NCBI GenBank assembly: GCA_023313575.1
Contig: JAJTTP010000033.1
Span: 147,425-211,424, forward strand
DNA: 64,000 nucleotides
Direction of reading: 5' to 3'
DNA from: Eutypella sp. D-1
Taxonomy: Eukaryota > Ascomycota > Sordariomycetes > Xylariales > Diatrypaceae
Below, one piece after another: positions 17,608 through 47,038 of the stretch. The notes below the pieces were generated by a model that saw nothing but the letters and a program-made list of their open reading frames with translations, did not search any database and was not told the origin of the DNA. Position 1 is the first letter of the stretch, and each line of letters begins with the position of its first letter. A program made the position numbers and the translations under genes.

Positions 17608-20600
17608 CTATTTTCCTACTTTGTGATCGATCCAACTCCACATGCGCTGCACTGATAAGCGATCCAGTGGCTTAACATCTGCCATGGTGCGTGACACGAG
17701 CTTCGTGTGACTGAGGTCAAACGTGCAAGCGCTTTGAACGCCTTGCCTCGAGCGTAATTCTTGACCTTGCGCATTGGCATCCGAGTCTTCTGTATATTTG
17801 GCCTTCCAGAACCCGATTAACCCCTGGGATGGATGGCACAGACGTTGTCGTCCACCGCTTAGACTCGATTCCAATTGCTCAAGCCACCGCTGTGGTGGGA
17901 CTGTGTCGAACTCTACGCTTCGGGACTCACGAATCCAGCGCAGCATATCATGCCACTTGGGTGTCTTATGAGGGTTAAGAACGTGGTATACTGGTACGGT
18001 CGATGATGTCCTGATATGAGTCGGCGATATGTGCTCGGGTTCATTGGGCAGAATGATTTCAAGAATAGCCGTCACCGCGAGGTCCACAGGTAGCCAGCTG
18101 AGCGGCTCATATCCAAGGTCAGGGAGGCAATGTGCTATCCGTGCCGTGGAAAGCATGAGTGGGTAGGCTTCGCTCTCATTCCAAACCCCATCCTTGTTAC
18201 CGCAGAGCTGTCCGACTCGGATGATCGACACGGACCTGTCAGAGCCTTCGGCCTCGTGTGCTGCAGAACAGATCTGCTCCGCTACCCACTTGGACTGGGC
18301 ATAACCTAGCGGCGTGGCATCTTGAGGGTTTGATGAGACCGTCTCGGACACGTGCCCGTTCAAAGTGGCCGAGACGGCTGCTGTTGAGCTGATGAAACAG
18401 AAGTGCGCATCTGCCTGCCTGGTGCAATTGATCAGGTTGCGCACCCCGGCGAGGTGGTATTCGAACGATTTTAGTTGTAGGCTGAAATTTACCGCCCACG
18501 CAGCATGAATGACGAGAGTTGCCTCTTCGACGATTTGCTTCATCGTGTCCTGAGACAACCCGAGATTGTCCTCCGACAGAACACAAGGTAGACAGATAAC
18601 ACGATGATCGAGTTTGGAGCTCTCGACATGTGCTTGTGGTTCCGCCAGGCCTCGCGCTGTGAGAGCTCGGTCGACACGGCCATATGCCATTCGTGAAGAT
18701 GGAGCTCGTACGAGGCAGTAGATTTTGCCAACCCGTTGATCTCGCAAAAGGGAACTGAGAATATGTGCGCCGAGAGCCCCGGTCGCACCGGTCAGCACCA
18801 CTACAACGCCTGTCTTTTCCATAGGCGTCCTGCCTCGTGGTTGAAAGTCGCTATACCTACCGGCAAGGTCACGCATCTGGTTCCTTGAACATATGTCGAA
18901 GCCAGCATCTTGAATATCGTTGCCCTGACGAAGTCTTACGATATATTTGGCCAGGGCGTCGACGGTGCCAAGATCGTAGACGATATTGAGTGGCAACGAC
19001 GGGGAGTCCGCTGGCATCAATGTCCTCTCTATGAACCTGCGTATCTGTATACATGCCATCGAGTCGACGCCTTGTCGGAATAGATCCTCGTCCTGGTTAA
19101 TTTGTCTTCCGGTGCATCTGCAGATCTCGTCGGTGATCCTAGATTGGACCTCATCATCTTGAACCTCGGCGTCGCTGACCGCGCTGTTCGTTCTCGCATA
19201 GACGGTCTCAATGATGTCCGCATACCATTCCTGAGACTGCCGGCGCATGATTGTGCCCTTGCTACTTTTCGGTAGATATTCCCTCCCCTTCACAATTCTG
19301 ATGGTTATTAACGAGGTCCGCGATAAGCGAGCATGACCCGGAAATTCGTTGTTGATTTGTTCTATACTCGGCCACAGCGTCTCGATGACATCTGCGCTCG
19401 GGAGAACATCCGGGGAGGCGAATAGCAACGCTCCTGGAAAGTCCCTGCCCGCCCCAAACACGAGCACATCGCACAGCAGGTTCGTAGAAGCTAAAATTGC
19501 CCCCTCCATGGGTGAGGGATCGAACTTCTTACCGTTAGCTAGCGCGATCTGGGAATCTGCCCTGCTGTGGTAGCGCCACGCATTCGGTATTGTGGGGTGA
19601 GCTTCGAACAAGTCCGAGGTCGCATACGAACCGTCCTCGCGATTCGTCTTCGCCAGTACCGGCCAATGGGGCCGGATGACGAGCTCCGCCAAGCCGTCCC
19701 CTGTAGGCTCGAATGCGAGCAGATCAGGATCATTCGAAGAGCGAAGATACTGCCAATCCTTGTCTACCGCGTAGTCCCGGTGCGACGACATCAGAAACCC
19801 GCACTCGGCGCTGCCCATCCGCGAGACGAGATTGACACCCTTCGCGACTAGCTCATCGCCGACCGTAGCTGGCAACGCCGCTCCTCCGACCCCCACGAGA
19901 TTCATGCTCTTGAGAACCCAAACGCCCTTACCTTCCGCAGCCAGAAATTGGAGCACGTACGGTACCGAGGTGAAATACAACACCGGGACTGGACTACTGC
20001 GGCGGGCGTATGCAACCGCGTCTAGCACGCTGCTGGCCGTGATGGGAGCGCGGCCTTCCGGGAAGAGCCAGATCATCGCACCGGCTGTCCACGCCCGAAG
20101 GCAATCGGCAAGGCCGCCGTGATATAACGGCGTTGTAGTGAACGTAGCGCTCGCAAGTTGCCCGAGCGATAGTCGAGGCAATGCGCCAACGGCGCTCCAA
20201 TGGCTCTGCGGGACGGGCTTCGGTAGGCCGCTGGAAGTTCCTGACGTATGATAGAAAAATGCGAGGTCGGAAGAGCGTAACTCCAACGAATTGTGGTCGA
20301 GGCTAGTTAGGCCCGTGCCCGGTTGCTGTCTGTATAGCGGGATGTTCTTAACCTTAATATCATTCCCAAGTTCGACAGCCACGCGTCGCCCTGTCTCATC
20401 TGCGAAGAGTGTGGTAACACCGCAACTCTTGCAAAGATGCACAATTGCACTCGGGCTCAACTGAGGTCTGTTGAGATCAGCAAAGGTACAAATGCCAGAA
20501 TAAAGCTGAAGGGCTATTGGGAGCAAGCCCTTACGCTACTAAGAGGACAGTGTTACCTGCGCGTATGAGGCCTAACCATGTAATAATAAAGTCGAGACTA

Positions 20601-20990
20601 CTCAAGCACATCAGACCGACTGTTCCAGCCGTGTTATTGTAGTAGGAAGGGGGCCCCGCGAGCGGGGCTAGGACTGTGGCCGCATGGTCTGACAAGCGCT
20701 TGAGCTCTCTATATGTGATCTGATCGGGTCCTGTACGGTTGTCAGTCGCTACACAGTCCTTCCGATCTCCGTGAGATGAGTGCGGGTTACTGGCCTCTGT
20801 CAACGCTGTCTCGTGGCGAAAAATCGGCAGTTCCGAGCGCCGGATGGTCGGGGAAACCTCGCGCCTGCTCATCTATAAGATCCAGAATCGTGTCGGATTG
20901 TGTTAATCGCCCTCCAGACACCGACTTCTTCCATCGTGCCGCCTGGTCAAGCGTACACGTAAAGTAGGTCAATCGCTCATCTTTATCCAT
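17608..20990 (-). CDS. NRPS-like carboxylic acid reductase: adenylation - thiolation - thioester reductase (A-T-R)
   Basis: The protein activates a carboxylic acid with ATP, holds it as a phosphopantetheine thioester and reduces it with NADPH to an aldehyde or alcohol. It has no condensation domain. The A domain has TSGTSSGLPKP (about 20247-20215) and TPLYHGG (about 20133-20113). The carrier serine lies in GVDSM (about 19062). The reductase starts near 18807 with LTGATGALGAH and has an SDR-type YAQSK (Tyr codon at about 18303). The last intron is clear (donor 20534, acceptor 20468) and gives LLVAPQLSP. The first junction, between 20790 and about 20700, is not: the N-terminal frame (ATG 20990) must change frame before ITYREL. 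The only canonical GT-AG solution (82 nt) deletes ITYR. Length is about 1,050 aa. It is divergent from the aldo-keto reductase across a 530-bp shared promoter. Confidence 0.85.
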
Positions 20991-21520
20991 GTTTGATCAG
21001 AGCATCAGCTTTCAGACGAAGCTTTATGATAATATGAATGCCCTATGCTGCGTGGATTCTTCTTATGATATCCTTCTTTCATTGGACGTCGCTTTCTGGT
21101 TATGTCGACTCCGGTTCCGCCTTCGGAGCTCCGCGCCATGTAGAGATAGCTGCACATGATCTAGGCCGCGAGCTTTGTACCCCGATTTAAATGGTATATG
21201 TCGCAACTATGTCGAATGCACCTGATAGCAAGATTGCAAAGCACTCCCAAGCCTCCGTACTTGATACATGTGGCTCAATATGCAGCTAAGTGTGTCAATG
21301 AATCATCACCTTCCCCTTTGCGGCCCGGATCCATATATCTAAGACATCATGCACTCCAAGGCCGAGAAGCGTCGAGGGCAAGGCCTAATGCAAGCCCAAC
21401 GTACCGAGGTCCAATCTGAATATTAGGCCATGTACTCCATCTGCTCGCGAACTTCTCAAGACAGTCATACCATCGCACAGTCATGCGTAAGTAGTCACCA
21501 AAGAAGCCGCATCCTACAAA
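20991..21520. promoter_or_regulatory. Shared divergent promoter of the A-T-R gene and the aldo-keto reductase
   Basis: A 530-bp head-to-head spacer suggests joint control of the two genes. It contains a GACGTC palindrome at 21085-21090 and a TGATCAG palindrome beside the A-T-R start. No known fungal pathway-specific factor site can be assigned with confidence. Confidence 0.5.
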
Positions 21521-22427
21521 ATGACGAAAATAACGATTACGGATACACTCTTGCTTTCAAACTCCAGGAAGATCCCACAGCTGGGATTTGGCGTCTACCG
21601 ATCTTCCGTCGATCAGTGCGTGCAGTCATGCCTGACGGCTCTTCAATGCGGCTACCGCCACATCGACACCGCGCAGTTCTACGGCAATGAGAAGGAAGTC
21701 GGCGAGGCTGTGAGGCAGTCTGGGATTTCGCGCAGCGACGTGTTCCTCACGACCAAGATCCTTACCCCGGGAGGCTCCGTCGAGGAGGATTATCAGAAAT
21801 GCGTCGAAAGCGTCAACAAGCTGGACGCGTCGGACGACGACAGCGGATATGTGGATCTGTTCCTCATCCACTCTCCTAACTGCGGGAAGGAGAAGCGGAT
21901 ACAGCTGTGGAGAGCCCTGGAGCGACTGTATCAGGAAGGCAGGGCGAGGAGTATCGGCGTGAGCAACTTTGGCCGCAGTCATATTGAGGAGTTGCGGGAG
22001 ATTGCCAAAGTCTGGCCCCCACACGTCAACCAGATCGAGGTATGTCATGCCCTATACTTGCCTGTCCAGACCACCAAGTAACAGGAGACCGCAGCTCCAC
22101 CCGTGGAATCAACAGAAGGGCATCGTGCAGTATTGTCACCAGAATGGAACCGCAATAGAAGCATATTGCCCGCTCGTGAGGAACACCAAGGGAGATGACG
22201 ACACCCTCGTCGGCATAGCGAAGAAACACCGCGTATCCCCAGCTCAGATCCTGATAAGGTACAGCCTGGAGAAGGGATGGATTCCGCTGCCGAAAAGCGA
22301 CGATCCATCTAGGATCGCTGCAAATGCTGATGTTTTCCACTTCAGCCTCGACAAGGAAGATATGACTACATTAGATGGCCTGGACCAGGGTCGTGACGGT
22401 GCTATAGTCCAAGCAGTAGATGACTGA
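21521..22427 (+). CDS. Aldo-keto reductase (AKR1/3/5-type)
   Basis: This is a NADPH-dependent reductase of aldehydes or ketones. Two exons: 21521-22039 and 22095-22427, joined by a phase-0 intron with GTATGT donor and CGCAG acceptor. The spliced product is 283 aa. The catalytic tetrad is complete: Asp and Tyr in HIDTAQFYGNE, Lys in LTTKI, and His in FLIHSPNC. SIGVSNFG and the C-terminal IPLPKS coenzyme segment are also present. The fold and length match fungal 2,5-diketo-gluconate/GCY1-like reductases. It shares a promoter with the A-T-R gene, which releases aldehydes in family members, so it may reduce that aldehyde to an alcohol. The role is inferred from position only. Confidence 0.92.
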
Positions 22428-22685
22428 GATGAGTTGGTACATGCGAAAGGCATAGGGGCGCAAGTTGCTCGTCTCGGGTTGCGGTTGTGGCACGGGACCT
22501 CACGCAAATGCAATTGGACATCGTGCAGAACTTCAATCACGCACTGCGCGTTCGCATTATCGTACTTGTGTAATGCGGCTTACAAGTAGAACCAAAAGAC
22601 TAGAATGGAGCTCATCATAAACGTATGTTGCCCTCATAAGGACACTGCATCTAGTTCATACCCCCCCTCCCGCGATATCCCCGGA
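22428..22685. other. Short intergenic region between convergent genes
   Basis: This should contain the 3' ends of the aldo-keto reductase and the small stress-type gene. Nothing else was recognised. Confidence 0.4.
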
Positions 22686-23083
22686 TCAGAACCTGTCCTT
22701 GTCCTTGACGGGCAACTCGCTTCCCGTCTGTTTCTTGTACTGATCGCGGATGAAGTCCGAGATCTGCTCGTCCTTCGCCTGCTCGACGGCACTCTCATTG
22801 CTCTGGTCTCCCTGTCCAAGGACGTGCTCCTGGACGAAGTCCACACCTGTACACGAGGCCCACAGGCGTTAGTAGTGCTAGAACATCGCTAGATAGGTGG
22901 GCTTGGTAGCAACTAACCTTTATCAAGAGCATCTTCGTTCTTCTCGCTCTCCTTGCCACCGCCGGCCATGCCGTGGAGCTTGTCCATGAGACCTCCGCTC
23001 TCTTTGTTCTGGTTCTGGCTCTGCTCTTGCTGGTTCTTCTCGCCGTCCTTGGAACCGCCGGTGAGCTTATTGACGAAATCCAT
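22686..23083 (-). CDS. Small hydrophilic stress-type protein (fungal 'DNA damage-responsive protein 48'-like family)
   Basis: This gene is too short for most predictions. Two exons, 23083-22918 and 22846-22686, are joined by a GTTAGT...TACAG intron in phase 1 and give 108 aa. The N-terminus is MDFVNKLTGG followed by a Gln/Asn/Lys/Glu-rich stretch. The second half has the conserved block GVDFVQEHVLGQG, then NESAVEQAKDEQISDFIR and a Tyr-Lys segment. I recognise this as a conserved fungal small-protein family often labelled DNA-damage or stress responsive. It has no known catalytic role. It is charged, has no membrane segment and is likely partly disordered. It lies inside the probable mycosporine cluster, between the aldo-keto reductase and the O-methyltransferase. 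Confidence 0.8.
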
Positions 23084-23914
23084 CTTGATCAGCCTTGGGT
23101 GTTCTTAAGATAGTGATTGAAATGCGTAGAGTTTCTACTTGTAGGTGATGAGAGCTCAATAACTCTATACTGTAGAATGCTATTCAGGATGTGCTGTGTA
23201 GTAGATGTGATAATGGTGAAGGAAGGCTCCAGCTTCTAGATATGGGAGTAGGGAATGGAAGTGATTAGTGTAAAATCCGGATCACCCCGCAAGAGAACGG
23301 CACTCACCACAAGTAACACCAAGTCTAGCTGACACCAGGGAAGGAAAGAGCTGAAACAACAACGTGATGTCATTGCTAGGCGTATCTTGGCTTGATTGAG
23401 GGCGAATCACTGCTATCCGATCGTCGAAACCCTCCTATCATTCGTGGCACCAGAGTACGTAATTGGTTACACCTACAGCACTAAAACCGGGAAATTGGTA
23501 CACTCACCAATATTCCACGTCTTGGCTGCATTAATGCAAGATCTGGATCCTGAATTCCCAGGCCCGCCCAAATCGTTTGAGCATACCATATATCACTGCA
23601 CCTCTGACTGTACATGGTGCCTGCTGGCTGACAACACCCACAGTCTAACGGTTTCCTCGGATGATAGATTCACTGTCGTGCGTATCCATTAGATCACAAA
23701 CGGCATGCGACAAGGCCAGACAAGTCGATGAATAGTACATTGAACAATGTCAATTGGCCATAGCATAGGTTGCCTTCCTTATGATTCATGCAGGCCATGT
23801 ACATTTCCGTCCTCCGAATAGCCCTCTTTCAAGAAAACCAGGAGCGACTCGATCACCCTCCTATATTTCGGCTTCCAACTACTGCTGGACAATAAAGTCC
23901 TCAGTGGCGATGCA
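23084..23914. other. Intergenic region upstream of the small stress-type gene
   Basis: This is the promoter side of the small gene and the 3' flank of the O-methyltransferase. An open frame at 23396-23692 begins with a non-ATG codon and matches no family recognised here; it is not called. No RNA gene was seen. Confidence 0.4.
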
Positions 23915-24898
23915 TTAACTCTCAATGCCAACACATTTGGTTATTTCCAAAGCGTCCTAACCAGGTCAGCCAACGTGTCGCAACAGTAAACGGGTAATAT
24001 ATGGAGAAAGTAGACTTACAGGCACGCCACTGGGTTCCCAGCCTTCCACAAACTTGCTCTCGTAGACAAGATTTGGATTGCCCCTCGGCTCTGATCCTTG
24101 ACATTCGTCATACCGGCGTTTCTTTTGTTCGACGGTGCTCCTAACGTATTCAAGGTACGGAGGGTTTCCTGGCTTGACAACTGCCAGAGAAGACGTTAGT
24201 TTGCCAGTGCCAAACTTCATTCTTCTTTCCGTGAGAGGATCTCACCGTTATCTGCTACGTATATTGAGCCCTGGCCGACCAGTCCAAGCTCCTCGCACAG
24301 CTTGAGGTCTCTTGTGTATGCTGGCTTGTAATGGTCTAAGAACAAGAGATCGATGCGCCTCAACTGTCCTGCATCATAGAGACGTTTGAGGGAGTCGGCA
24401 CTGGCACCAACGACGACGGTCACTACATCGTGCAAGCCAGCTAGATCAACCAGTGATGAGATGACAGCGGCGAACTCAGGATTCTGTTCCAGACTGAAGT
24501 ATTGCCCACCACCTGCATCCCTCAATGCCGCAGCAAACGCTATGGCGGAATAGCCGACGTAGCCACCCAGCTCGACAACTACTCGCGGCTTCTCTCTTTT
24601 GATCAGGTCGACAACGGTGCTGGACTTGTATTCGCCAATGTTCATCAAGTACTTCTTCTTTCGACCGTATTCGTCAATTGCGTCTAGCACCCTCTGAGGG
24701 TTCCCGCGCATCTGGTCTAAGTCGGGATGGTTGTACATAAAGTGTAGGAGGGCAATCTCCCGGCCATCGTCGAACTGGAACCCATAGTTAGCGATATTTT
24801 CACCTCCAAAACTCAAAATAGGCGATGGTGCACGAGGTACTGACGTAGACGGTCTCCTGAGGCTGATAGGCCTCGCCGTGGAACTTCTCCTGGTCCAT
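23915..24898 (-). CDS. COMT-type SAM-dependent O-methyltransferase (probable mycosporine pathway methyltransferase)
   Basis: The enzyme transfers a methyl group from SAM to a hydroxyl. Four exons: 24898-24845, 24774-24246, 24180-24020 and 23956-23915, giving 261 aa. The introns were placed by family conservation: the first (donor GTCAGT, branch GCTAAC, acceptor TTCCAG) yields VY/FDDGREI, the second yields VADNVVKPGNP, and the last adds a 14-codon exon. Motif I is VVELGGYVGYS (about residues 84-94). The catechol-OMT metal/catalytic segment FLDHYKPAY and ADN are present. The family is catechol O-methyltransferase-like. It is divergent from the sugar-phosphate cyclase. In known mycosporine pathways the second enzyme methylates desmethyl-4-deoxygadusol to 4-deoxygadusol, and that role is inferred here. 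Confidence 0.9.
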
Positions 24899-25684
24899 CT
24901 TGCCTAGGAAGGATGAGCAGTTTCTCTTCCTTAGGTTCCGTATGGGCTAGACACGACGTGTATGCCTTGCGGTGTATGCGTGAAATTCGGGTACTGTATA
25001 GCTCTGCCCTGGTACATTAGTCATATTATTGATAGCAAAGGCAGCCTTTAGAGGAAATCGATCCAGTCGCTCCCACACGTGGCTGGCGAGAATGCGATGT
25101 GTCACTACTTTAAGGGTCTTGAGGTCATCGACTTTTCCATCAACCCTCAGCCAATGTATCTTATCCGAGCAGCGTATCCATCACCATGGAGATGAAACCC
25201 AGGCCGCCAGGGATCAAACGAGCCTTATGCCCCGAGGATCTGGATCAATCTCCTGCAGTATGGGCATTAGCCCGAGTTTTATCGTATGTTTGATGCACGC
25301 ATCTCTGCGGGTCAGGAACCACACCAAGTCTAATTCACCTTGGCTGTGTTGTCTCATACTTAGACTGATGCAGACGCATGCGGGCCAGCGTCGTAGACAT
25401 AGACGCGGTATGAGATGAGATATCAACATGAACAGACCGACAGTTGAGCTCGGCAGGGGAAATGCACTGGATCAATGGCTGCGAGTCATGACGATATGAC
25501 GATTCCATTGACGTCTGCGAATAGTTGTTTTCGTAAGTTACCACGGAGTTCTAACCCGTGTGGCGGCCTTCATATCGGAATAGCTGGGAGATTTAAGGCT
25601 TCCACTACTCCTCAGCTCGATATTCGCCTTCGAGGCGCACCTCTATCTTTCATACATTTTACATCTAGCCATCTCGAACTGAAA
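24899..25684. promoter_or_regulatory. Shared divergent promoter of the O-methyltransferase and the cyclase
   Basis: A 786-bp head-to-head spacer lies between the two core pathway genes. It contains a palindromic CACGTG E-box at 25076-25081. A joint regulator is likely but cannot be identified from this window, which has no transcription factor gene in the cluster. Confidence 0.5.
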
Positions 25685-27291
25685 ATGTCTGACCTCAAGG
25701 CCAACGTCTCCGAGACCCAGCATGGGTTTCACGTAGAGGGCTATGAGAAAATTGAGTACGACTTCACCTTCGTGGATGGCGTCTTCGATGAATCCAACAG
25801 TAACCTCGCGGACTGCTACACGAAATGGGGGCGGGTGCTGGCCGTGATGGACAAGAACGTCTACGACATTTACGGACAGAAGATGGAGCAGTACTTTAGA
25901 CACTACAAGCTGGACCTGAAGGTTCACAAGACCTCCATCGGCGAAAAGGCCAAGACGATCGACACGTTCCTTAGCATCTGCGACTCTATGACGGAGTTCG
26001 GTATCATCCGCAAAGTGGGTTGCTGCGCAGACAAACCGTATAGACCACATATTAAGCAATTGTAGGAACCTGTTTTGGTCGTAGGAGGCGGTCTCGTCAC
26101 CGACGTAGCCGGGTACGTATGACTGGTCTCACCAAGTTTGACCCCCGTCCGTAGCCGCAACTGACGACGATTAGATTCGCATGTGCGGCCTACCGCCGCA
26201 ACACCAACTTTATCCGCGTACCGACGACCGTCATCGGATTAATCGATGCTAGCGTCAGCATCAAAGTTGCGGTAAATTACGGGCGATACAAGAACAGACT
26301 CGGGGCCTACCATGCGCCCATGCACACCTTCCTCGACTTCAGCCTGCTGCAAACCCTACCTAGGGCGCATGTCCGCAACGGGTTCGCGGAGCTCATCAAG
26401 ATTTCCTCATGCTCCCACTTGGAGGTTTTCGACCTGCTAGACAAGTTCTGCGAGCAGCTCATCGATACCAAGTTCGGCCGGACAGACGGGACTCTCGATG
26501 AGGTCCGCAAGGCGGCCGATATCGTAAGTAGCCGGTAAACCCTGATGAACACCACTCCGCGACTAAGTGATTCTCGTAGATCACGCGCGAAGGCATCTAC
26601 GAGATGCTGAAACTCGAATCGCCCAACCTGCACGAGATCGGTCTGGACAGGGTGATTGCCTACGGGCATACGTGAGTGACACCGAGATATCCTACAGTAG
26701 CAGAATCCAATCAAATGTGCAGTGCTAACTCTTTCACGAAGCTGGTCACCCCTTCACGAGCTAATCCCCGAGACACCGCTCCGCCACGGTCATGCAATCT
26801 CGATCGACATGGCTTACTCGGCCACGCTAGCCAACCAGAGAGGACTGCTATCCGACGAGGAGCACAGCCGACTCCTCACGCTATTCTCGAGGGCCGGCCT
26901 ATCGATCGACCACCCGCAATTCGACGACGAAGTGCTCGACAAGGGAACGGCAGCTATTCTCAAGACCCGAGACGGCCTACTCCGGCTCGCAGTGCCTAAC
27001 CCTCTGGGGAAGTGTACCTTCCTCAACGACGTTTCTGCGCAGGAGTTGCGAGATGCCCTGCGAAGACATAAGGAGCTTGCTCGGGCGTACCCGCGGGAGG
27101 GTGCTGGGTTGGAGGCGTACGTCGATAGTAGCGACACTGGCTACGCAGATAATGAGAGTGGACAGAGTACCACGGAGACGCAATCTGGAAGCACAATGGG
27201 CGATGTTGCCGGCGGGATCGGCAATCGCGCTGGCGGCCTCATTAAAGGTGCCATTGGCAAGCTTTCTGACGGCGTTAAGGTCCAGGCCTGA
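25685..27291 (+). CDS. Sugar-phosphate cyclase: desmethyl-4-deoxygadusol synthase / 2-epi-5-epi-valiolone synthase type
   Basis: The enzyme belongs to the 3-dehydroquinate synthase fold and cyclises sedoheptulose 7-phosphate, using NAD and a metal ion. Five exons: 25685-26014, 26066-26112, 26175-26523, 26580-26671 and 26742-27291, giving 455 aa. Core motifs are [14 protein letters not shown] (about 113-126), [22 protein letters not shown] (metal Glu about 198), GHTWSP (His about 272) and HGHA (about 288-291). GHTWSP and the neighbouring O-methyltransferase and ATP-grasp genes favour the desmethyl-4-deoxygadusol branch over plain 2-epi-5-epi-valiolone or dehydroquinate synthase. This is the first step to mycosporines. 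The last about 60 residues are an extra tail, first Ser/Thr/acidic, then Gly-rich ([18 protein letters not shown]). Confidence 0.92.
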
Positions 27292-28123
27292 TGTCGGGTG
27301 GTGTAGAGTCTCCCATGTACGTCGCGTTTTATCGCGCTGAATTTTCATATACTTAGAGCGGTTAAGGTGTTAAGGGTGCTATGTAGCTTTGAGGCGTACT
27401 GCAAATAAAAGTCGATCTGTGGTCAATTGAGCCACCCCATGCCTGAGTAGAACGAACAGCGACAGATCAAGCCGCCATCTGGGCTTGTCTTTTGCAATGC
27501 GAATCCAAAAGGTTCATACTTGTATGCTGTGTGAAGTGAGCTAATTCCACTCCCATGTAGCCGTCATTAGACAATTTTTTAGTAGCTCGTTCGGTGGCCT
27601 GCCCGCTAATTTAACCCCTGAAATGGCAAGGGTGGTGTCGTATGCTTGGTAGAAGCTGACGATGCCCATGAACCTAAGTATTTGATAGGAATAGTCTCGT
27701 ACAGTTTGATGTTCGTTTTTTCTTTTCTTTAACTCGCTGTATATTGGAAGTAATCGGAGCCGGTTTTGGAGTCTGAGACATTCTTGTTGTCGTTGACGTA
27801 GTCTATTCATGCAGCCGCCAAAGCGCCAGTCGGTTTCCTGGAATGTAACATGTTCTGCAAGAAGAAAATAGCGAGGCATGAAAGGCATGAATCATTGACA
27901 TGACTGAGCAGGTTGGCATTGCCACAGACCTAGCCCTGGAACACGCGAAATCATCTGCCTATAGGCAAACTAGCCAGCTCTCAATATTAGTCACTCTCTA
28001 CAGCCTGGCTCGACAATCCGCCATTAAACGATACTCCACGACATTGATCCTGGTGTTGATATTTCGAGCTACGCTGAGCAAGTATTCAAGAGGACGCTTG
28101 TCACCTCCCCCATCAGCGCAGTC
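27292..28123. other. Spacer between the cyclase and the ATP-grasp gene
   Basis: About 830 bp should hold the cyclase 3' end and the ATP-grasp promoter. A minus-strand open frame at 27541-27888 (115 codons, starting MPFMPRYFL) is basic and has no recognised family; it could be a small gene or chance and is not called. No RNA gene was seen. Confidence 0.4.
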
Positions 28124-29668
28124 ATGTTAACACGGCCTCTGGATATCGATTGCAGATCATTGGGGCTTGTCGTGACCAGTATTATCATTTTGCCATGTTC
28201 TCTCCTTGTGGTCCTTCTTATTTACATCACTAGAGCGATTTCCTCCGGCGTGGGGCTCACGGATGAACACAAGCTTCGGGATAGGAGGCGGAACCACCGG
28301 GATCGGGATGACCAAAGATATGTTATCCTCGTCACAGGAGTTGGCATGGCTAAAGGTCTGGCACTCGCCCGAGCATTCCATATACGCGGAAACCGTGTAG
28401 TCGGCGCAGATTTCGAGAGTCAACACATCCCGTGTTCTGGGCGTTACTCCAAAGCCCTCTCGACATTTCACCCATTGGTTAGGCCCGCTGACAGCGGGCA
28501 GACTGAGGCATACGTGGCAAGCCTCATTGAGATTGTAGAGACGGAGCATGTTGACCTATGGGTATCGTGTTCGGGAGTTGGCAGCGCCATCGAGGATGCC
28601 CGCGCCAAGGAAGCCATCGAACAGCGGGGTCATTGCACGTGCATACAATTCGACGTCGAGACTACTTCGAGACTCCACGAGAAGGACTCGTTCATGCGGG
28701 AGGCGAAGAGGTTGGGGCTTCCCGCCCCAGAGACACACGACATAAAGTCTGTCGACGAAGCCCTGAGAATATTGTCCGACTCTGAATCGGCGGATCCAGA
28801 CCGGAAGTTCGTCTTGAAGCCGGTCGGAGTCGATGATGTTCATCGTGGCGATATGACGCTCTTCCCTCTCAAATCGCATTCCAGAACTAGGAAACATCTA
28901 TCCCGTCTCCCAATATCACCTGCTACGCCTTGGATCATGCAAGAGTTCATCCCGGGCGGGGAGGAATACTGCACCCACGCGTTAGTCGTGCGCGGCGAGG
29001 TGAGGTGCTTCGTGGCGTGCGCTAGTGCGGAGCTGCTGATGCATTACCGCGCGCTACCGTCGACTTCTGCGTTATCAATGGCGTTTCTGAATTTCACGCG
29101 CGAGTTCGTCGCCCGGTCGCATAATCCCGAAACGTGGACGGGTCACCTCAGCTTCGACTTTATGGTTCGGGACTGCGAGGCAAAAGAGACTGGCATTGAT
29201 AAGAAGATCTACGCCATCGAATGCAATCCCCGAGTGCATACAGCCGTCGTACTTTTTGACCTATTCGGTCCGGACACCGCGGCTTTGGTGGATGCCTACA
29301 TTTCTGCACTGCGACCTGTTCGTAATGGCCTTGATGCGACGATAAATTGTGCTGGGGGACACCTAATAGTCCCAACCCAGGGAACGCCGCCTAGATACTG
29401 GCTGGGGCATGACCTAGTGACACTCGTCCTGCATCGAGCATGTCTCTTTGCGATCGGCCGGGCAAGCTTGGGTGACCTGATCGGCGGGTGTGCAACATTC
29501 GTCGCCCACGTATACACGATGAAAGAAGGTACCTTTGCTGCGTGGGATCCGTGGCCGGCCGTGATCCTCTATCACGTGTACTGGCCAATGACCATACTGT
29601 CAGTCTGGTGGAAAGGAGGACGTTGGAGCAGACTCAATGTCAGCACGACAAAGATGTTTATCCTGTAA
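28124..29668 (+). CDS. ATP-grasp ligase, membrane-anchored (MysC-like, probable mycosporine synthase)
   Basis: ATP-grasp enzymes join a carboxylate or enolate to an amine through a phosphorylated intermediate. In mycosporine pathways the MysC ligase couples 4-deoxygadusol to an amino acid. This is a single exon of 514 aa. A hydrophobic segment at about 13-38 is followed by a strongly basic stretch (RDRRRNHRDR), which suggests an N-terminal membrane anchor. Next come a Rossmann-like pre-ATP-grasp part (VILVTGVGMAKGLALA) and the ATP-grasp core: FVLKPVG (about 229-235), MQEFIPGGEEY (about 272-282) and the metal-binding AIECNPR (Glu 366, Asn 368). It lies downstream of and in the same direction as the cyclase. 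The ligase role is inferred from fold plus context; the amino donor cannot be read. Confidence 0.88.
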   Translation: MLTRPLDIDCRSLGLVVTSIIILPCSLLVVLLIYITRAISSGVGLTDEHKLRDRRRNHRDRDDQRYVILVTGVGMAKGLALARAFHIRGNRVVGADFESQHIPCSGRYSKALSTFHPLVRPADSGQTEAYVASLIEIVETEHVDLWVSCSGVGSAIEDARAKEAIEQRGHCTCIQFDVETTSRLHEKDSFMREAKRLGLPAPETHDIKSVDEALRILSDSESADPDRKFVLKPVGVDDVHRGDMTLFPLKSHSRTRKHLSRLPISPATPWIMQEFIPGGEEYCTHALVVRGEVRCFVACASAELLMHYRALPSTSALSMAFLNFTREFVARSHNPETWTGHLSFDFMVRDCEAKETGIDKKIYAIECNPRVHTAVVLFDLFGPDTAALVDAYISALRPVRNGLDATINCAGGHLIVPTQGTPPRYWLGHDLVTLVLHRACLFAIGRASLGDLIGGCATFVAHVYTMKEGTFAAWDPWPAVILYHVYWPMTILSVWWKGGRWSRLNVSTTKMFIL

Positions 29669-36070: not shown

Positions 36071-37059
36071 CGGGATGTACAGGGCCTGCTTGTTGCGGCG
36101 CTCTTGCTCGGCTGCAGCTGTAGTCACAGCTGTCACAGTGGTCGTTATGACCGTGGTCCAGCAACAGCATCAGTAGGAATAATCACAGACTGCTGCGTTC
36201 CCTGGCAACTCCCTTGAAAAACGGATTGGGAGACGCCGAGAAGAAACTCACGCAGTATACAACAAAGCTTCATGTCTTGGTATGGTCTTGGGCAGGAGAG
36301 AGAGGGTGCTCGAGTCTCAGACGCGACTCGAGGCTAAGGTTGAGGACTATCGAAAGCAGCTGCTGCAGGCGGAGATTAAGCAAAAACATCAGATTTTGCG
36401 GGAGCTCGATAACAGGCGCAAAGTGTTCACCAACCAAGAAGAATGTAATCTTAGAGTTGCCGAGGCCGACAAGCACCAGCAGCCCAAGCCCCAGCCTTGG
36501 CCGCAACTGGAGCAACAGCAAATGGTGCCAGTGGTGAAGCAGGAGGGGTAGCGGCAGCAAGAAGTCTGAACCTACAAGTGTCTTCTTTTGCTGTCGTGTG
36601 CTGCGACGCCTTCGTTACGGGTATCGTGATGTTGGCGTTGTAGATGTCTTATGGCATGCTGTGCTTGTCCTCCCTCATCTTAGGTATTTTTTATCCTTGA
36701 GCTTGTAATGCAATTTGGTGGGAATTCTGATACTACTAATTGTTACTTGTGGCACGCTTACTTGTAATCATATCTTTTACACCCCACCAGCGGACTATTT
36801 CCCCCTTAACGAGCTGGGGACATGCTTCTGTATGTGTCACCTACTATATATAGCACGCGCATATAGCGTTGCGTCGTTATCACATATGGCGTGAAAATAG
36901 GGCAGTCACGTGTGAGTAGATAACGTGATCTCAGCTGATGGGGCTATGATTACTACGGCCGCTGGTAGCGAGTAGCCGCCGAATAAAACCATGGAGATTT
37001 ATGCACGGTAGCTATGTGATCAATTACATAATTCCACTTCAAGACGGATTTCATCCTAT
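36071..37059. other. Region upstream of the HET gene with short open frames
   Basis: This holds a short open frame at 36282-36551 whose product is Gln/Glu/Lys-rich and coiled-coil-like (RERVLESQTRLEAKVEDYRK). It has no recognised family and could be a remnant or chance. The rest is the presumed HET promoter. No RNA gene was seen. Confidence 0.35.
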
Positions 37060-39390
37060 ATGACACCCAACATGTCTTGTGCCGCTGCGACAGGCGACTC
37101 CCGCGATCTACTTGAGGATGAAATGACACATGAGGCCGCTCTGACCTCCCCGCATGCGACCGGGGCTCCATTCACGGTCTCCGACTCCACGGAACGTGCG
37201 TTAAACATCGCACTTGAGCTATTAATCGACCAAGATGAGGAACCTGTCGAGTGGTATATGCGCTGTCTTCATCGCCTCTTTATCCTCCTGGACTTGGCGG
37301 GACACTATTCCTCAAACAGGGATTATGACTTCCTAGAGAGTCTCTCCCCCGGACAAGAACATGCAACAGCACTGCTCGAAGAGTGGTGGACTAAAACGGA
37401 TGTGCTTACTTCCAAAGTCAAGAAATGTGTGTTTGGGTTGGTCCTAGCATCTCAGGCGCCTGAAACCTATCGCGTAGAATTCGAAAGGCTCGAGGCTCTG
37501 ACGCCTCGTGTGGATATCCCCTTACTGCATGAAGCACACCAAGAGCTACAAAGCTGTTGGCATGATAGGCCCTATATATCAGGCCTAAGGGATTCCTGGA
37601 GGGCCTTTATTGACTGCTCAACTTACCATCGGCGCATGTTTGCTCTTTTCTATGGGGAGCTATCCCCTGAGGATGACGTCGACAGCTCAACGTGGGATTT
37701 TATGAGGACAGATGGCCGACGTGACGCAGGCGGCGAAGCAGCTATCGAGAGAATTGGTCGCGCATGGCTCAGACAGTTTTCTGAAAGCCCAAACCGCGAA
37801 ACCGGTTCTGCCGTTGGCTTCCATTGGGACAAGAAAAGGTTGCAGATCCGGGATTGCCATATTGGGATCCCAGTAAATCTGATTCCATGCCCTTGGCTAC
37901 ATAAGAAAGACGGCAAAGACCAACACCAATCTCCCTTGCCCTATTACCTTTGGGATATCAAAGCAAGACGTACCGTGGAGACAGCCGAGCTAGACGCTTC
38001 GGCTGTGAGATATGACATAGTAAGTCACACGTGGGGTCGGTGGAGGAAGCCTGGCGCAGGGGCTCGTGTGTCTGGGGTTCCCTGGCTGGTTCCAGAGAAT
38101 ACAGTGTTTGATGTCAACGCCCTTGGTACTTTGCTGGAGCAGGCTGGCTTCCACGAGGAATATGTCTGGCTAGACCTTCTCTGCATCCCGCAGGAAAGGT
38201 CAGATACTGAGCAGGTCCGTATTTGCCAAGTCGAGCTCGCGAGACAGGCCCAGATCTTTTATCGCGCTCAGACCGCCGTCGCATGGCTTCATGATGTCTC
38301 AGACTGGCGAGGTGCTGAAGCCGCAATCGCGTGGCTCGGCTTGGACTACCTGAGGACGAATACACCATCGGACATGGTAGAGAGAAGGGATATGATGGGG
38401 TCCATCATGAATGAATTGGAAGCAATATCGACAGACCATCACAGCTTTCCCGTGCGGGGAGGGTCAACTAGCTGGTTGTCATCACTGTGGACATTGCAGG
38501 AGTCGATGATCCGTCAGGACATGTTTCTAGCGAGCCGTTCATGGGAGCCTCTCCTGGCCGGGAACAATCTTCTTATCACCCTAGACTACCTGTCTGCACT
38601 GGTCAGACTATCTCAGATCTCTCCAAACTGTCCAGTCGGAGTCAAGGAGTTCTGGGCCTTGTTGATGACGGAGAGACTGGAGAGTCTATATCAGCCGAAC
38701 AGACTCACACCGCTGATTCTGGGACAGAGACGAGCCTGCACGCATTCGAGAGCTGTAGCGATAATGGCCGTCACAGGGGCGACCGACTGGTTTCTCGGGA
38801 AAACCGTAGAGCAGTTTCGACAGGACGAAGAGGTTCCCGATGTATACCCGATAGAGTTCCTCAAAGAGGTGTGTGAAAAGTCTGGCGCCGCCTTCTTCAT
38901 GTCGTATCTTCACCCTTCCACCGCAGACGACGATCGGAACGCCCGGGGGAGCATGCTTCCATTCGCAGCAGATTTACATGATAGCCACAACTTGAAGATT
39001 GCAAGCCAGCTAGATTGCGTAGTCGAAGACCATGAGACTGTCAGGGAATGGGTGATCCAGGAGGATTTTAGCGTGTTGCTGCCAAGAGTTTGCATAGTGG
39101 CATCCAAAATGGAGGTCCTGGAAACAGCACGAGTGCGCGTGGTCGTTAACGAAGTCCAAATAACTCTGCAAGAGTACGTTGCCCTTTTCGCCGGCGAGAC
39201 CTACGCGGTGTGTACCCAGGTCCCAAAGGCATTTCTTTCAGGTATACGCGGCATCATACTCAGCCGCCCAGATGGGCAGCATATGTTTAGAAAGCTCGCC
39301 GCGTTTGCCTCGACCCGGGTTGTGGGAGAGCATAAATATTGGGAGTCTAAACTCCCAGAAGCGAGATGGGTCAATTGGCTCGTTTCTTAG
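37060..39390 (+). CDS. HET-domain (heterokaryon incompatibility) protein
   Basis: HET-domain proteins act in fungal self/non-self recognition; their activation triggers cell death. The gene is a single exon of 776 aa. The HET signature starts near residue 320 with YDIVSHTWGRW, continues with EYVWLDLLCIPQE and IFYRAQTAVAWLHD, and ends with the LSSLWTLQESMIRQD block. These are the usual three conserved blocks of PF06985. The first about 300 residues are a helical region with no recognised domain; the C-terminal 250 residues are also unassigned. No NACHT, ankyrin or WD repeats are seen. Its position next to transposon debris fits the usual accessory, fast-evolving location of HET genes. No partner gene for incompatibility can be named. 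Confidence 0.9.
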   Translation: MTPNMSCAAATGDSRDLLEDEMTHEAALTSPHATGAPFTVSDSTERALNIALELLIDQDEEPVEWYMRCLHRLFILLDLAGHYSSNRDYDFLESLSPGQEHATALLEEWWTKTDVLTSKVKKCVFGLVLASQAPETYRVEFERLEALTPRVDIPLLHEAHQELQSCWHDRPYISGLRDSWRAFIDCSTYHRRMFALFYGELSPEDDVDSSTWDFMRTDGRRDAGGEAAIERIGRAWLRQFSESPNRETGSAVGFHWDKKRLQIRDCHIGIPVNLIPCPWLHKKDGKDQHQSPLPYYLWDIKARRTVETAELDASAVRYDIVSHTWGRWRKPGAGARVSGVPWLVPENTVFDVNALGTLLEQAGFHEEYVWLDLLCIPQERSDTEQVRICQVELARQAQIFYRAQTAVAWLHDVSDWRGAEAAIAWLGLDYLRTNTPSDMVERRDMMGSIMNELEAISTDHHSFPVRGGSTSWLSSLWTLQESMIRQDMFLASRSWEPLLAGNNLLITLDYLSALVRLSQISPNCPVGVKEFWALLMTERLESLYQPNRLTPLILGQRRACTHSRAVAIMAVTGATDWFLGKTVEQFRQDEEVPDVYPIEFLKEVCEKSGAAFFMSYLHPSTADDDRNARGSMLPFAADLHDSHNLKIASQLDCVVEDHETVREWVIQEDFSVLLPRVCIVASKMEVLETARVRVVVNEVQITLQEYVALFAGETYAVCTQVPKAFLSGIRGIILSRPDGQHMFRKLAAFASTRVVGEHKYWESKLPEARWVNWLVS

Positions 39391-40513
39391 GTCTGTCGAA
39401 GTATTCCATTAAAGTACTCCTTACATCATATGAGCCCTACGGCATATGTAAAGCCGTTTCGGCTCTTCTTTGTTTTTTCCTGCCTACGTTATCAATTAAT
39501 ACCGCAGAGCATCATGTTGCGTTGTGGGTAGAGTCAAATCGATCACAGCATGTTCCCTAAAGTTCGATGCCTAAGCGATAGGACATAGCAATATGCTGCG
39601 TCTGGCGTTATCATAGTGGCACCATGACTTCTTCCTCGCCATCCAACGCTATGAGTGCGTTCTACTTGCGAACACATTCCGCTTATCGCCATAAAGTCAG
39701 TCGCCTCTAGCCAAGCTCAATCGCAGGCGCTGCAGCTCTAGCATGAACCCAGTTTCCAACAATTACGTTCCTGTTTTCCAGCAGGCGAACTATTGTAGCC
39801 AGGCAGAGTAGCCCCACACGTTAGGGGTATCACAGGGGGGGAAGGAACGCCCAATTGCTAACCACTAGCATGGAGCGCGCTGCAATGGAGGCAGGGGAGG
39901 TAGCATCCTTTAGCGCTACCGCATACACATACAGCAACTCCCGCAAATAATTAGGCTTCCTGTGAACCTGACCTGGGAATCTTTCACTTCGCCTCTTCAC
40001 ATTGCAAGTGTGATAGGCTTAGTAGTGAACCCAAAGATCATAGTCTGATTGAAAATGCGTTATCAGAAACTCATCGCTATGCTATATAACTGCATGCAAG
40101 GAGATACACAGCGTCCATTCACGAGTATAACGGCATGCACAGAGATACAACCCCCCCCCCCCCCCCCCGGCGCCCCTGCCCATGTCGACACTATCAAACG
40201 GATTGTGAGCCCAGATATAGGCATTTCGGTTACAGCCTACGTTCATGAGTATAACTGTATGCAATGAGGTATACAGCCGGCATTCATGAGACGTGCATCG
40301 TCTCTCGGGTTATTGACGCGGCTACTGACTTCTGTATGCCTCATTCCTATATATATAAACTTCCAATTTATAAAAAGGTAAGTATCCTCCTTAAAGTCGG
40401 TAAAGTAAACCCATACTTCTTTTATCAAGACCCAAAATCTATTCCACAACATTTAGCTCCATTACCATACTTACACCATCTCTCAGACACCTACCTTTAA
40501 ACCATATTCAACA
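39391..40513. other. Intergenic region with degenerate repeats and a C18 run
   Basis: This is downstream of the HET gene. At 40084-40150 and 40237-40290 a degenerate unit of about 40-45 nt recurs three times (core TATAACTGCATGCAAGGAGA, later copies mutated). Between copies two and three is a run of 18 C (40151-40168). No gene was recognised. Confidence 0.5.
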
Positions 40514-40663
40514 ATGGCAGCTTCTTCGCAATCCCTCAGCACTGTCGACCACGCCAAGCCAAAGACGTATCCCAAATGCAAAGAATGCGGTAGCACGGGG
40601 AACGATAAACTGGAGTGCACCAATTCGAGCTGCGCGTACTATAAAACCACTAACTGTTCCTAG
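40514..40663 (+). CDS. Small Cys-rich hypothetical protein, possibly the first exon of a spliced gene
   Basis: This 49-codon frame starts with MAASSQSLSTVDH and ends with a Cys-rich part (YPKCKECGSTGND, then ECTNSSCAYYKTTNCS). The CxxC...C...C spacing resembles a small zinc-binding motif. The TAG stop overlaps a perfect GTAAGT donor (TA/GTAAGT at 40662-40668), so the mRNA may be spliced here and the protein may continue. No clear second exon could be assigned. A TATA-rich leader precedes the ATG. There is no signal peptide. Family not recognised. Confidence 0.4.
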   Translation: MAASSQSLSTVDHAKPKTYPKCKECGSTGNDKLECTNSSCAYYKTTNCS

Positions 40664-41505
40664 TAAGTTCGCCCCCTATTCCGGTCTCTCCAGTCCTTGC
40701 ACTTTGCGTTCGATATATGGAACCGACAATTACTTAAAAGAGTGCAAGTACGACTCGAGGCGACAGTCTTGCATTCGACAAAGCAACTACTGATGGGGAA
40801 AGTGACAAGGGCGAGCAGAGAATGATGGCATAACTGTTTCGGTGCACGCAGTTCTTTGGGCTGGTCTTATTCAGAGTGCTTGGTATCAGCAGCATTCTCA
40901 GCAGTACAATATCCGATCTCTCTCTGGAATACTATAGCATTGTCTAATTTCCCCCGTGCGAAGCGGCAGAGACAGGAATTTGTAGCTTAACATATCATAC
41001 ACTATAAACAGTGCCTTGGAGCCTGGCGTGAGAACAAACAAGAGTACATCAAATGTGACTTATACCGTTGCCACCGGCCATTAAATCGAAAAGATTGCGG
41101 CAGGTCTACCCAAGGGCTGGGATGTTATAATCGTGTTTGATGGACATCGGCAGACTTCCGTTCTCAATATGAAGATCGGTAGTTTCTGATCTAATCATCT
41201 ACCAACGGTCTATATTTATTCGCCACATCCAACTCTTATTTACAGAGCCTGGCTTCCAGGAATGGTCTCTGAATGGTCTCAGCAACTAATTGCAGTCTAT
41301 TCGCTTGATAGACAATGTTGATTCCGATCTCGTATGACGGCAAAGAAAGGAAACAAGTTTTACAGGAAAGCCAAGCGAGCTCCTTAGCTTCCAATGTTGG
41401 TATTTCCTTAGAGGCATGGACGAAAATTACAGCAGACAAGCAACCCATCGTAGAGACGGATAGTATGTATGAGATAAGAGTTTGATATGAAGAGCATCAC
41501 TAGCT
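40664..41505. other. Intergenic region
   Basis: This contains a possible second exon of the small Cys-rich gene and the 3' flank of the kinase-like gene. No family, repeat or RNA gene was recognised. Confidence 0.35.
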
Positions 41506-42786
41506 CTATAAAAGCGGCATGCAGCCATATACATCTCTAAGCTGTTCCCAAGTAACCTGTTCCTTGTAGATGAGCTTTGCAACCCTCTTCGCAGCCCAAA
41601 GGCTTCCCTTGGGTGAAGCCATGTACTGACGATGCATGAGTTCGGCACTTTCAGAGGCCATGTAGGTGGAAAGTGGTGTAAGATGCTGACTCTGCTTCAT
41701 ATTCGCCTGTTGCTGATCCGGGGGCTTCGTTTCCCCTTCCCCCTCTTCCTGCTTCGCTTTCTCAATCTCTATTTCCCTTAAAAACTGTATAACGAGCGTC
41801 TTAAACTCCACGATCGGTCTATTCTCCTCCTCAGATAGCCCGGGGAAAATGACCAACTCTGGACAGACAGACAGCTGCTCGATTGGGGCCGCCTGCGCGT
41901 TGCTCCAGTCAATGACTCCGGTCAGATTATATTCGTCATCGAAAAGAAGGTTACCGAAATGGAGGTCAAGATGACACAGTGGAAATGGGCCTCGGACTCT
42001 ATCTTCAATGACGGTATGGGCTAGAGCTGTTTTCAGCACCCAACATGCCGTAAGCGAGTCTGCATTGTTCGGGTGCAAGGCCACGATCTCTCGGTTTTCT
42101 CCTTGTCGTTGATTGTAAAAATATTCTAGCGACGTTTCCAAAGGGCCAGGCGAATGATGCCATGCCATGGGAATGATCTCGACAGGCTGATCCGCGGTCT
42201 CCCCACACCAAAGGCGTCCAATGCGGTTAAATGTTAGGTTTTGGAGTTCCGCAAACACATTTGCGAACTGTTTGGCAACCTTGGTATGATATTGCCGAGG
42301 TATCGCTTTCGCCAGCCCATCATCGAGTTGACGGCCACCCAAGTACTCCATCAAGACATATGGGTATCCGAATGATCCCTCCATGGACATCTCAAATTCG
42401 AAAATACGAGGGATGGGGATACTTGTACGTTGTCGGATGATGTTCATGGTGGCTATTTCGCTCAGCAACGAGGTCTTGGTGTTGTCATCAACAGTGCGGT
42501 ACGGAATCCGAGTAATCCAATAGATGTTGTCAGAAAATGCGATTTCAAGAACCAGGTTGTTGAAACCCGTTGCAAACTGGGTTAGGTTTATGCTGCAGTC
42601 AATATCGGGAGGCAGGTTTATTTGATGTCTGCGCCGCGAGTCTATCGTGCATTTCTTTAGATGACTAAAGTTTGCTGAAGACAGTATGAGCTTGATTCGC
42701 TTATATTTGTCTGACTCTGGGTTTAGGCCAGCAAAGCCCGACCAATCTTGACTTGGTCTTGTCATTCTGCTCGATGCTGTCGGCAT
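41506..42786 (-). CDS. APH-fold phosphotransferase family protein (PF01636)
   Basis: This is a kinase-like protein of the aminoglycoside phosphotransferase superfamily, which in fungi forms large families of unknown substrate. It is a single exon of 426 aa. Visible motifs are an N-lobe with VLEIAFSDNIYWITRIPY, the YVLMEYLGGRQLDD hinge, the catalytic Brenner-type loop CHLDLHFGNLLFDD with its Asp and Asn, and GVIDWSNAQAAPIE holding the metal-binding Asp. The C-terminal 100 residues have a Glu/Lys/Gln-rich linker. All catalytic positions appear intact, so activity is likely. The name does not imply antibiotic resistance. Confidence 0.88.
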   Translation of the reverse strand: MPTASSRMTRPSQDWSGFAGLNPESDKYKRIKLILSSANFSHLKKCTIDSRRRHQINLPPDIDCSINLTQFATGFNNLVLEIAFSDNIYWITRIPYRTVDDNTKTSLLSEIATMNIIRQRTSIPIPRIFEFEMSMEGSFGYPYVLMEYLGGRQLDDGLAKAIPRQYHTKVAKQFANVFAELQNLTFNRIGRLWCGETADQPVEIIPMAWHHSPGPLETSLEYFYNQRQGENREIVALHPNNADSLTACWVLKTALAHTVIEDRVRGPFPLCHLDLHFGNLLFDDEYNLTGVIDWSNAQAAPIEQLSVCPELVIFPGLSEEENRPIVEFKTLVIQFLREIEIEKAKQEEGEGETKPPDQQQANMKQSQHLTPLSTYMASESAELMHRQYMASPKGSLWAAKRVAKLIYKEQVTWEQLRDVYGCMPLL

Positions 42787-43434
42787 TCAAATAACAGCTG
42801 GTGCTCGGAAAAGAAGCCTCGGATGCGCAGAACGAAAAGGAAGAGCGGCGAGGGGGGACGGGCCAGCGGTGTTAAAGTGTTCGCGACAGCGGGCCGTTCC
42901 AGTACTAGGGAGACTAGAACCACAGGAATCAGATGTCAGGCATATCGATATAAAAGCCATCAAGTCGGCTTTTACAGCATGGTTGACGAAGGGTAGGGTT
43001 TATTTACTTACTATATAGGTGCCTACCTACTTATACTTTTAGGTACTTAAGTAGGTGCATAGGAGGTAGTCTCAGCAGGCTCTGACGCCAAGTCCGGGTG
43101 GAGACTAGGCGAACGCGGAGTCGGGACTAGTTAGCACAAAAACAGTTTAGTCAGGGCAAACCCAGGCCATCCCCCCCCTGCCAGTCCGGTGCCCATCTTC
43201 TCTGACGTATTGTGTAACTATTGCCCAGGTGGTGCCAGGAATAAATCCAAGACTACCTAGGTACGTAATTCCCTCAATTGACACACACTCTCAACACACA
43301 GCCGACCTTGAATCATCTCTCTTACTCATAAATAAAACCACTTTTCTATCCCTTTAACGCCGTGGTAAGGCATATATGACTCTTAATTCAGACACACTCA
43401 CACCGTCTCCGTCACTTAGCTCGCACAACACACT
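42787..43434. promoter_or_regulatory. Divergent promoter region with TACCTA motifs
   Basis: This is a shared spacer between the divergent APH-like and F-box genes. A cluster of GTGCCTACCTACTTATACTT and GTACTTAAGTAGGTGC forms an imperfect palindrome near 43018-43058; another CCTAGGTACGTA lies at 43255-43266. No gene was recognised. Confidence 0.4.
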
Positions 43435-44505: not shown

Positions 44506-44888
44506 TAGCCACCAGGGGCGTTTGGATGTTGATTTCTTGACACGGAGGTTCGGACGCATTGCTGCCTTGTTACCTCACAGGCTGACCTCATCACCTAAAT
44601 ATGCATGTCGCCTCACTACGGACGCGGCTCTCTATGTGAGAGCACGTACGATGTTCTTGGCAGGCCGATAAAATTCGTCGACGTTGTTCTAGACTAGCTA
44701 CCTAGTCGCGCGCTGATAATATTATGCTAGTCTATTCGGTAACGTCATAACCCATCTCTCAATGGAATATGAAGCTGGCGTCTTGACCGACATGATGCAC
44801 ACCTTTTCAGGCGTCCTCTGGCACGTAGCAGGGAATGGTGCATTCCATAGCACGCTTTTAAGCAAGCCGGGACCTCCTCAATTCTAAC
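44506..44888. other. Intergenic region between convergent genes
   Basis: This contains 3' flanks of the F-box and reductase genes. Nothing else was recognised. Confidence 0.4.
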
Positions 44889-45946: not shown

Positions 45947-47038
45947 GGTGGATGATGAAAAAGTGGGAGCAATGCTTAGTAAAGCGTGGGAAGGTCGATA
46001 ACCGACTGAAAAGCCAACCAATAGAGAGTTCAGAGCTGCGTAACGAAGGAAGTAAGATTCCGGATTTGAAGGCAATTGCGAGGACGTATCCAGGACAAAG
46101 CGCATATCCGCTTCTATAAATCATCTTTGAGTAAAATCGGCTTTATAAGGCCCGACTATATTGTCGCGCCGATGCACACTTGTCGGAAAATAGCAACGGA
46201 GATAAGCAATCCCGGTTGTAATTAATCCCTTGCTTGATGGATAGGACCAAACAGAACAGTTTTACACTGGCTACTCAGATTACAAAGGGACTTGGGGGAC
46301 CCTACTTGCCTAGATAGGAAAGTCTTGGCAGGCAGGTCCGGCTGGGGTCAGGCCCACTCGGGTCCATCCAAGGCATTAATACAAGGCTGGTAGACATATC
46401 AAATGGTGTTAGTTGGAAGGCGCTCAAGTTTAGTAATGGAAAAATCCAGTAATACTACACATAGAACATATTATGAAGGATTGTTTAACTCAATTACATG
46501 GTCTACGTGCTCGTGTGTGTGTGTAAGCTCGAACCTTGGCTAGCGCGTAGTTTGGCCAGCCAATGCACCTGGCGCTGACCCGTATCGGCGTCGACACCAG
46601 AACTTTCGAGACGTTAATTGTCGCCGGGTGTTCAACTTCCTCGGGGAGTCAGAGCTAGCACGGAAGACCAATATGGACGTCATCCTAATGGGTTAACATT
46701 TACTTGATCTTATATATACGTGCTGTTTTGAATGTCCAGGCTAAGATAGGATAATAGGGCGGCTCTTAAAATTCTACCAGTCCGTTAGAATCGTTTCACA
46801 AAAGGGGCCGGACGATTTGCCCCGACCAATATCACCCGTACCCTTTCGTTAGAAGGTACTATTTCTGGAGTTTATTTCGTGTCAGGAACAGTCGCCTGCA
46901 GGTCGAAATTAGTCAGAATGATCCCATCGCTTTCTAACTTGCTACTTCTTAATTTAAAGGTACTAGAATTCCAGTGGTATAGATTGAGGGAATGATTAGA
47001 ATATTATTCGAGTATATATTTTAAGTGCTCGAGCGTGT
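45947..47038. other. Intergenic region
   Basis: This is the promoter side of the AKR8-like gene, with the alternative ATG at 46105. A GT microsatellite lies near 46510-46522. No gene or RNA was recognised. Confidence 0.4.

Follow-up and report, generated by a model that had tools for sequence, protein, structure and literature searches.

Our analysis of a 64,000-nucleotide stretch of the Eutypella sp. D-1 genome (contig JAJTTP010000033.1, positions 147,425 to 211,424; hereafter the window) reveals a cluster in which genes for a sugar-phosphate cyclase, an O-methyltransferase (OMT) and an ATP-grasp ligase lie beside genes for a nonribosomal peptide synthetase (NRPS)-like reductase with adenylation, thiolation and reductase domains (A-T-R; the window's enzyme is called ATR below) and an aldo-keto reductase (AKR). 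The linkage between ATR and the ligase is conserved in other fungi, and the gene cluster is real. We posit, at a probability of about 0.45, that this fungal cluster serves mycosporine synthesis and includes a tailoring module dedicated to it, in which a carboxylate is reduced after its amino acid has been coupled to the core. An amino-alcohol mycosporine is the best single reading of the product, unproven as it stands. The main features, in window positions, are as follows.

complement(17608..20467, 20535..20872), minus strand: A-T-R carboxylate reductase (NRPS-like), ATR; 1065 aa, one 67-nt intron; Pfam AMP-binding, AMP-binding_C_3, PP-binding and NAD_binding_4
20873..21520, no strand: divergent ATR/AKR promoter, 648 bp separating the two start codons
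21521..22039 + 22095..22427, plus strand: aldo-keto reductase, AKR; 283 aa, from Pfam and gene model
24898..24841, 24803..24246, 24180..24020, 23956..23915, minus strand: COMT-type O-methyltransferase (MysB-like), OMT; 272 aa, 4 exons, PF13578 and PF01596 in the main exon
25685..26014, 26066..26112, 26175..26523, 26580..26671, 26742..27291, plus strand: sugar-phosphate cyclase of the desmethyl-4-deoxygadusol synthase (DDGS) type (MysA-like); 455 aa, 5 exons
28124..29668, plus strand: ATP-grasp ligase (MysC-like); 514 aa, single exon, hydrophobic N-terminal helix

These five genes of interest occupy about 12 kb (17.6–29.7 kb), all with open, spliceable frames, and run from left to right as ATR (minus), AKR (plus), a small hydrophilic protein (minus), OMT (minus), cyclase (plus) and ligase (plus). 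The original prediction, made from the letters of the DNA, had grouped the cyclase, the COMT-type OMT and the ligase, with the A-T-R protein and AKR alongside under a common promoter, and the gene models, Pfam matches and 648-bp gap bear this arrangement out. OMT adjoins the cyclase as a second divergent pair, with 786 bp between starts. The first OMT intron (24804-24840) is unusually short at 37 nt; the first exon junction is tentative, and this exon may be modelled wrongly.

Neighbourhoods in relatives were read from the contigs and locus tags shared by protein matches to ATR, the ligase and AKR, using the best 120 of 1026, 1568 and 8000 matches, respectively, to which the counts below refer. 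Diatrype gave the closest named match to ATR, and Monosporascus and Diatrype those to the ligase. A contig shared by ATR and ligase occurs in 30 cases; placing the ligase at random in a genome taken to be 45 Mb long would give 1.3. Of these 30 contigs, 11 are shorter than 500 kb, for which chance predicts 0.06. Thirty organism names appear in both lists, and for 28 of them the two genes lie on one contig, the exceptions being Xylaria curta, with tags of different prefixes, and Apiospora arundinis. The linked records come from Diatrype, Apiospora (3), Pestalotiopsis, Truncatella, Xylariales AK1849, Xylariomycetidae FL2044 and Xylariaceae FL0016, as well as Hypoxylon, Annulohypoxylon, Daldinia, Hypomontagnella, Jackrogersella, Xylaria, Microdochium and Pyricularia. 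Tags place the genes close together in Pyricularia pennisetigena (ATR PpBr36_09129 and ligase PpBr36_09130, consecutive), in Apiospora marii (ligase PG985_009727, ATR PG985_009729, with AKR on that contig too) and in Pestalotiopsis fici, where AKR (PFICI_12762) stands between ligase (PFICI_12761) and ATR (PFICI_12763). Within the source assembly itself (48.5 Mb in 72 contigs) there are 27 NAD_binding_4 matches, some perhaps exons of a single gene, and by our arithmetic about 0.01 of them would be expected by chance within 12 kb of the core trio. Its conserved linkage to the ATP-grasp gene supports a place for ATR in the mycosporine pathway; a functional tie to mycosporines is likely where ATR and ligase adjoin. 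The original prediction required both ATR and AKR to be kept near the core in relatives, and judged by the ligase it stands for ATR and partly for AKR.

AKR shares a contig with ATR in 16 of 21 names common to their lists, and consecutive tags join it to the ligase in Apiospora aurea (PG986_008657/008658) and A. saccharicola (PG996_003025/003024). Its D, Y, K and H columns, which we take to be the catalytic tetrad, are identical in 121 of 121 sequences (the window's and the best 120 matches), and a tree joins it, at a moderate support of 0.83, to those AKRs of Pestalotiopsis, Seiridium and Apiospora that are linked.

The assignment of cyclase, OMT and ligase as a mycosporine core of the MysA/B/C type, also proposed originally, is supported by gene content and, for the ligase, by predicted structure. 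The best PDB match of the cyclase is chain 5tpr_A, named '3-dehydroquinate synthase' there (495.6 bits, E 1.1e-147), followed by chain 4p53 at 237.3 bits; we take 5tpr to be a cyanobacterial DDGS and 4p53 to be a 2-epi-5-epi-valiolone synthase (EEVS). The match covers residues 4-399, beyond which the C-terminus is a Gly/Ser-rich tail. A search of the genome found one further cyclase homologue, 26% identical and inside a 1608-aa frame, which on our reading is probably AROM-like. A Pfam scan of the ligase protein gave zero hits, and a profile search of PDB sequences returned no ATP-grasp chain, its matches being mostly weak ones to short-chain dehydrogenases. The AlphaFold2 model of the ligase (pLDDT, the predicted local distance difference test, 83) resembles ATP-grasp enzymes, the top match being the amino-acid ligase RizA (E 3.6e-12), with modest TM-scores (template modelling) of 0.37-0.48 on the query among the 50 structures shown; the ligase has one match in the whole genome. 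The same trio occurs in cyanobacteria as mysA-mysB-mysC with mysE or mysD, so that there, too, the fourth gene can be NRPS-like. MysE carries A and T domains followed by a thioesterase and adds a second amino acid, whereas the window's ATR ends in an R domain instead.

The A, T and R domains of ATR are intact, with the carrier Ser and the R-domain Tyr and Lys kept in the groups examined, and its next best-scoring relative in its own genome is 33% identical. In the A4 motif a His stands 13 residues ahead of a conserved Gly, where the genome's own aminoadipate-reductase-like protein (L003) has an Asp at the same spacing; we assume this position to be amino-binding GrsA 235. (L003 replaced an initial control A domain, L002, which was dropped when it proved not to be an aminoadipate reductase.) Of the best 120 ATR matches, 119 carry the His and the remaining one has a gap; by group, it is present in 30/30 ligase-linked and 48/48 Fusarium ATRs, so that ATR lacks the amino-binding Asp of amino-acid-reducing A-T-R enzymes such as L-aminoadipate reductase. 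Since His replaces this Asp, a free alpha-amino acid is an unlikely substrate; the His would fit a substrate that no longer has a free amino group, its nitrogen having become part of the mycosporine enaminone. Of the two carboxylates first suggested, the free amino acid thus loses ground while the mycosporine-amino acid is compatible with the pocket and a possible substrate, as an unrelated acid would likewise be. Two neighbouring positions read Leu-Ala in 27/30 linked ATRs; in Fusarium they read Phe-Pro in 39/48 and Leu-Ala in 6/48, a weak hint that the substrate may have shifted. In the Pfam scan, which took in part of the window's open reading frames (ORFs), no polyketide synthase domain was found among those scanned, nor with it the pairing of an aryl-acid carboxylic acid reductase with a non-reducing polyketide synthase.

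From the gene content, the intact domains and the linkage we infer a pathway whose substrate, step order and product would be as follows. The cyclase and OMT would make 4-deoxygadusol, and the ligase would join an amino acid to it, as is established for the homologous families. ATR would then adenylate the carboxylate of the mycosporine-amino acid, load the substrate onto its carrier domain and release it reductively with NADPH as an aldehyde, which AKR would convert to the alcohol; where AKR lies elsewhere in the genome, this last reduction may fall to a different reductase or to the R domain. The end product would be a mycosporine amino alcohol of the serinol, glutaminol or glutamicol kind.

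Several observations weigh against this proposal. AKR, too, had been predicted to be conserved beside the core; it does adjoin the ligase or lie between ligase and ATR in Pestalotiopsis fici and two Apiospora, but in four Hypoxylon names it sits on a different contig from ATR (Apiospora arundinis is the fifth name not counted as sharing one). Ligase and AKR share a contig in just 7 of 16 shared names, the nine mismatches comprising six Hypoxylon names, Apiospora arundinis and two genus-level labels (Caloplaca, Squamulea). Among the best 120 ligases, 90 have no ATR from the best 120 ATR matches on their own contig, and the matches listed without a linked ATR include Monosporascus and many records named for lichen fungi. 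Two Monosporascus ligases (P0124, P0126) are more than 60% identical to the window's, and no Monosporascus appears among the best 120 of 1026 ATR matches. Monosporascus may have lost its ATR recently. No motif common to the three promoters of the cluster rose above chance.

The strongest evidence against a required ATR comes from Phaffia rhodozyma, a basidiomycete, in which a mycosporine cluster was found by Bellora et al. 2016 (PMC5103461). As in the window, the three core enzyme types (DDGS, OMT and ATP-grasp ligase) are clustered; unlike the window, ATR and AKR are not mentioned in the available text of PMC10057719 and PMC5103461. The three Phaffia genes alone yielded mycosporine-glutaminol in yeast, identified by high-performance liquid chromatography according to a figure legend in the available part of Sepulveda et al. 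2023 (PMC10057719). An ATR is thus no general requirement, the three core genes having sufficed there. In the same text the Phaffia ligase is described as incorporating glutaminol, which favours an order in which ATR and AKR first make a free amino alcohol (serinol or glutaminol) and the ligase couples that amine to 4-deoxygadusol; such a product could also serve other pathways in Fusarium. Yet this order would have ATR act on a free amino acid although His takes the place of the Asp with which amino-acid A domains bind a free amino group, and its A-domain stretch matches solved chains of CoA ligases (anthranilate, oxalate) and of a carboxylic acid reductase, so we consider it unlikely. ATR may instead belong to the mycosporine pathway and act on some other carboxylate, such as a side-chain acid or a later-attached acyl group. 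An Arg that could serve to bind acidic groups occupies, in 120/120 ATR matches, a position that we aligned manually with GrsA 322, but no further acid-attaching gene was found among the cluster ORFs scanned, and this option strikes us as very improbable.

A more substantial alternative comes from Fusarium and other Hypocreales. Fusarium contributes 48 of the best 120 ATR matches, 22 of those to AKR and none of those to the ligase. Mean identity to the window's ATR is 48.4% for the Fusarium proteins (range 46-51%) and 49.0% for those of ligase-linked records; the ligases of these linked records have a mean of 54.0%, and the best 120 ligase matches extend down to 45.6%. Because the ATR identities are similar and the ligase list reaches that low, a co-evolving Fusarium ligase would be expected in it, and by this comparison Fusarium probably has no close ligase (best 120 of 1568 matches). 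ATR and AKR nevertheless carry consecutive tags in eight Hypocreales records (for example FZEAL_5994/5995 and QQX98_002491/002490); hence the pair is older than, or outlived, its association with the mycosporine core. The Fusarium relative is NRPS11: the nrps11 of F. poae (P0032) is 49% identical to ATR over 96%, with an AKR match on the same contig, and in several records a related AKR is adjacent by tag. It has been put in the ChNPS12 subfamily (PMC6480918) and described as nitrogen-repressed (PMC5404775), and the available text of PMC3694855 and PMC3814326 assigns it no product. No open-licence paper was found that ties mycosporine, Fusarium, O-methyltransferase and dehydroquinate synthase together.

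ATR and AKR could accordingly be an older, independent acid-to-alcohol module with a non-mycosporine substrate, which in Xylariales-type fungi is merely co-clustered with the core or makes a separate, co-regulated metabolite. The nearly identical pockets of Fusarium and ligase-linked ATRs, equal at most positions, and a midpoint-rooted ATR tree that broadly tracks species groups are consistent with such a module. Against it, linkage to the ligase recurs in 30 cases, spread over several families and including Pyricularia, which would be difficult to account for if the genes shared no function, and the Leu-Ala and Phe-Pro preferences separate linked from Fusarium ATRs; we judge it somewhat unlikely, though well worth considering. 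With reduction after coupling retained as the preferred reading, we go further only tentatively, at rather less than even odds: ATR would be a mycosporine-amino-acid carboxylate reductase, a new A-T-R substrate class, acting with AKR at the long-missing amino-alcohol step in Sordariomycetes, and the NRPS11 pair of Hypocreales would descend from this module, having persisted after the core was lost.

The A-T-R architecture of ATR is that of the fungal carboxylate or adenylate-forming reductases treated by Li et al. 2022 (PMC9605436). The enzymes of known substrate in the available part of that paper act on aryl acids, aliphatic acids, amino acids or aminoadipate, none being tied there to mycosporines, and PFICI_12763 is one of thirteen P. 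fici A-T-R enzymes listed there without reported investigation. In Hypoxylaceae, two groups of four NRPS-like clusters have been linked to unidentified mycosporine-like compounds (PMC8403587); in the available text these clusters are given neither an enzymatic step nor a role for a reductase. The accessible part of a review (PMC4665425) documents mycosporines carrying serinol, glutaminol and glutamicol, and according to it Pyronema omphalodes yields both the unreduced mycosporine-serine and the reduced mycosporine-glutaminol glucoside. Among the open-licence papers found, no title or abstract opening assigns an A-T-R enzyme to mycosporine biosynthesis, and neither these nor the available texts credit any enzyme with reducing the amino acid.

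One more gene lies between AKR and OMT, which the original prediction had not listed.

about 22686..23083, minus strand: small hydrophilic, Gly/Gln-rich protein; about 108 aa, one intron

Pfam gives it just a sub-threshold PF14013 match, and it may stand outside the mycosporine pathway. To the right of the cluster, positions 37012-46120 hold genes for a HET-domain protein, an APH-type phosphotransferase, an F-box protein and another aldo-keto reductase. In the final 14 kb (50000-64000) the GC content drops to 15-29%, forming an AT-rich block that might, at a guess, stem from repeat-induced point mutation.

Amino-alcohol mycosporines are classic fungal sunscreens. The presence of ATR beside the ligase in many fungi, Pestalotiopsis fici and Pyricularia among them, makes it a candidate for the step from amino acid to alcohol that can be tested by knock-out, and the same linkage may offer a lead on the orphan NRPS11 of Fusarium.

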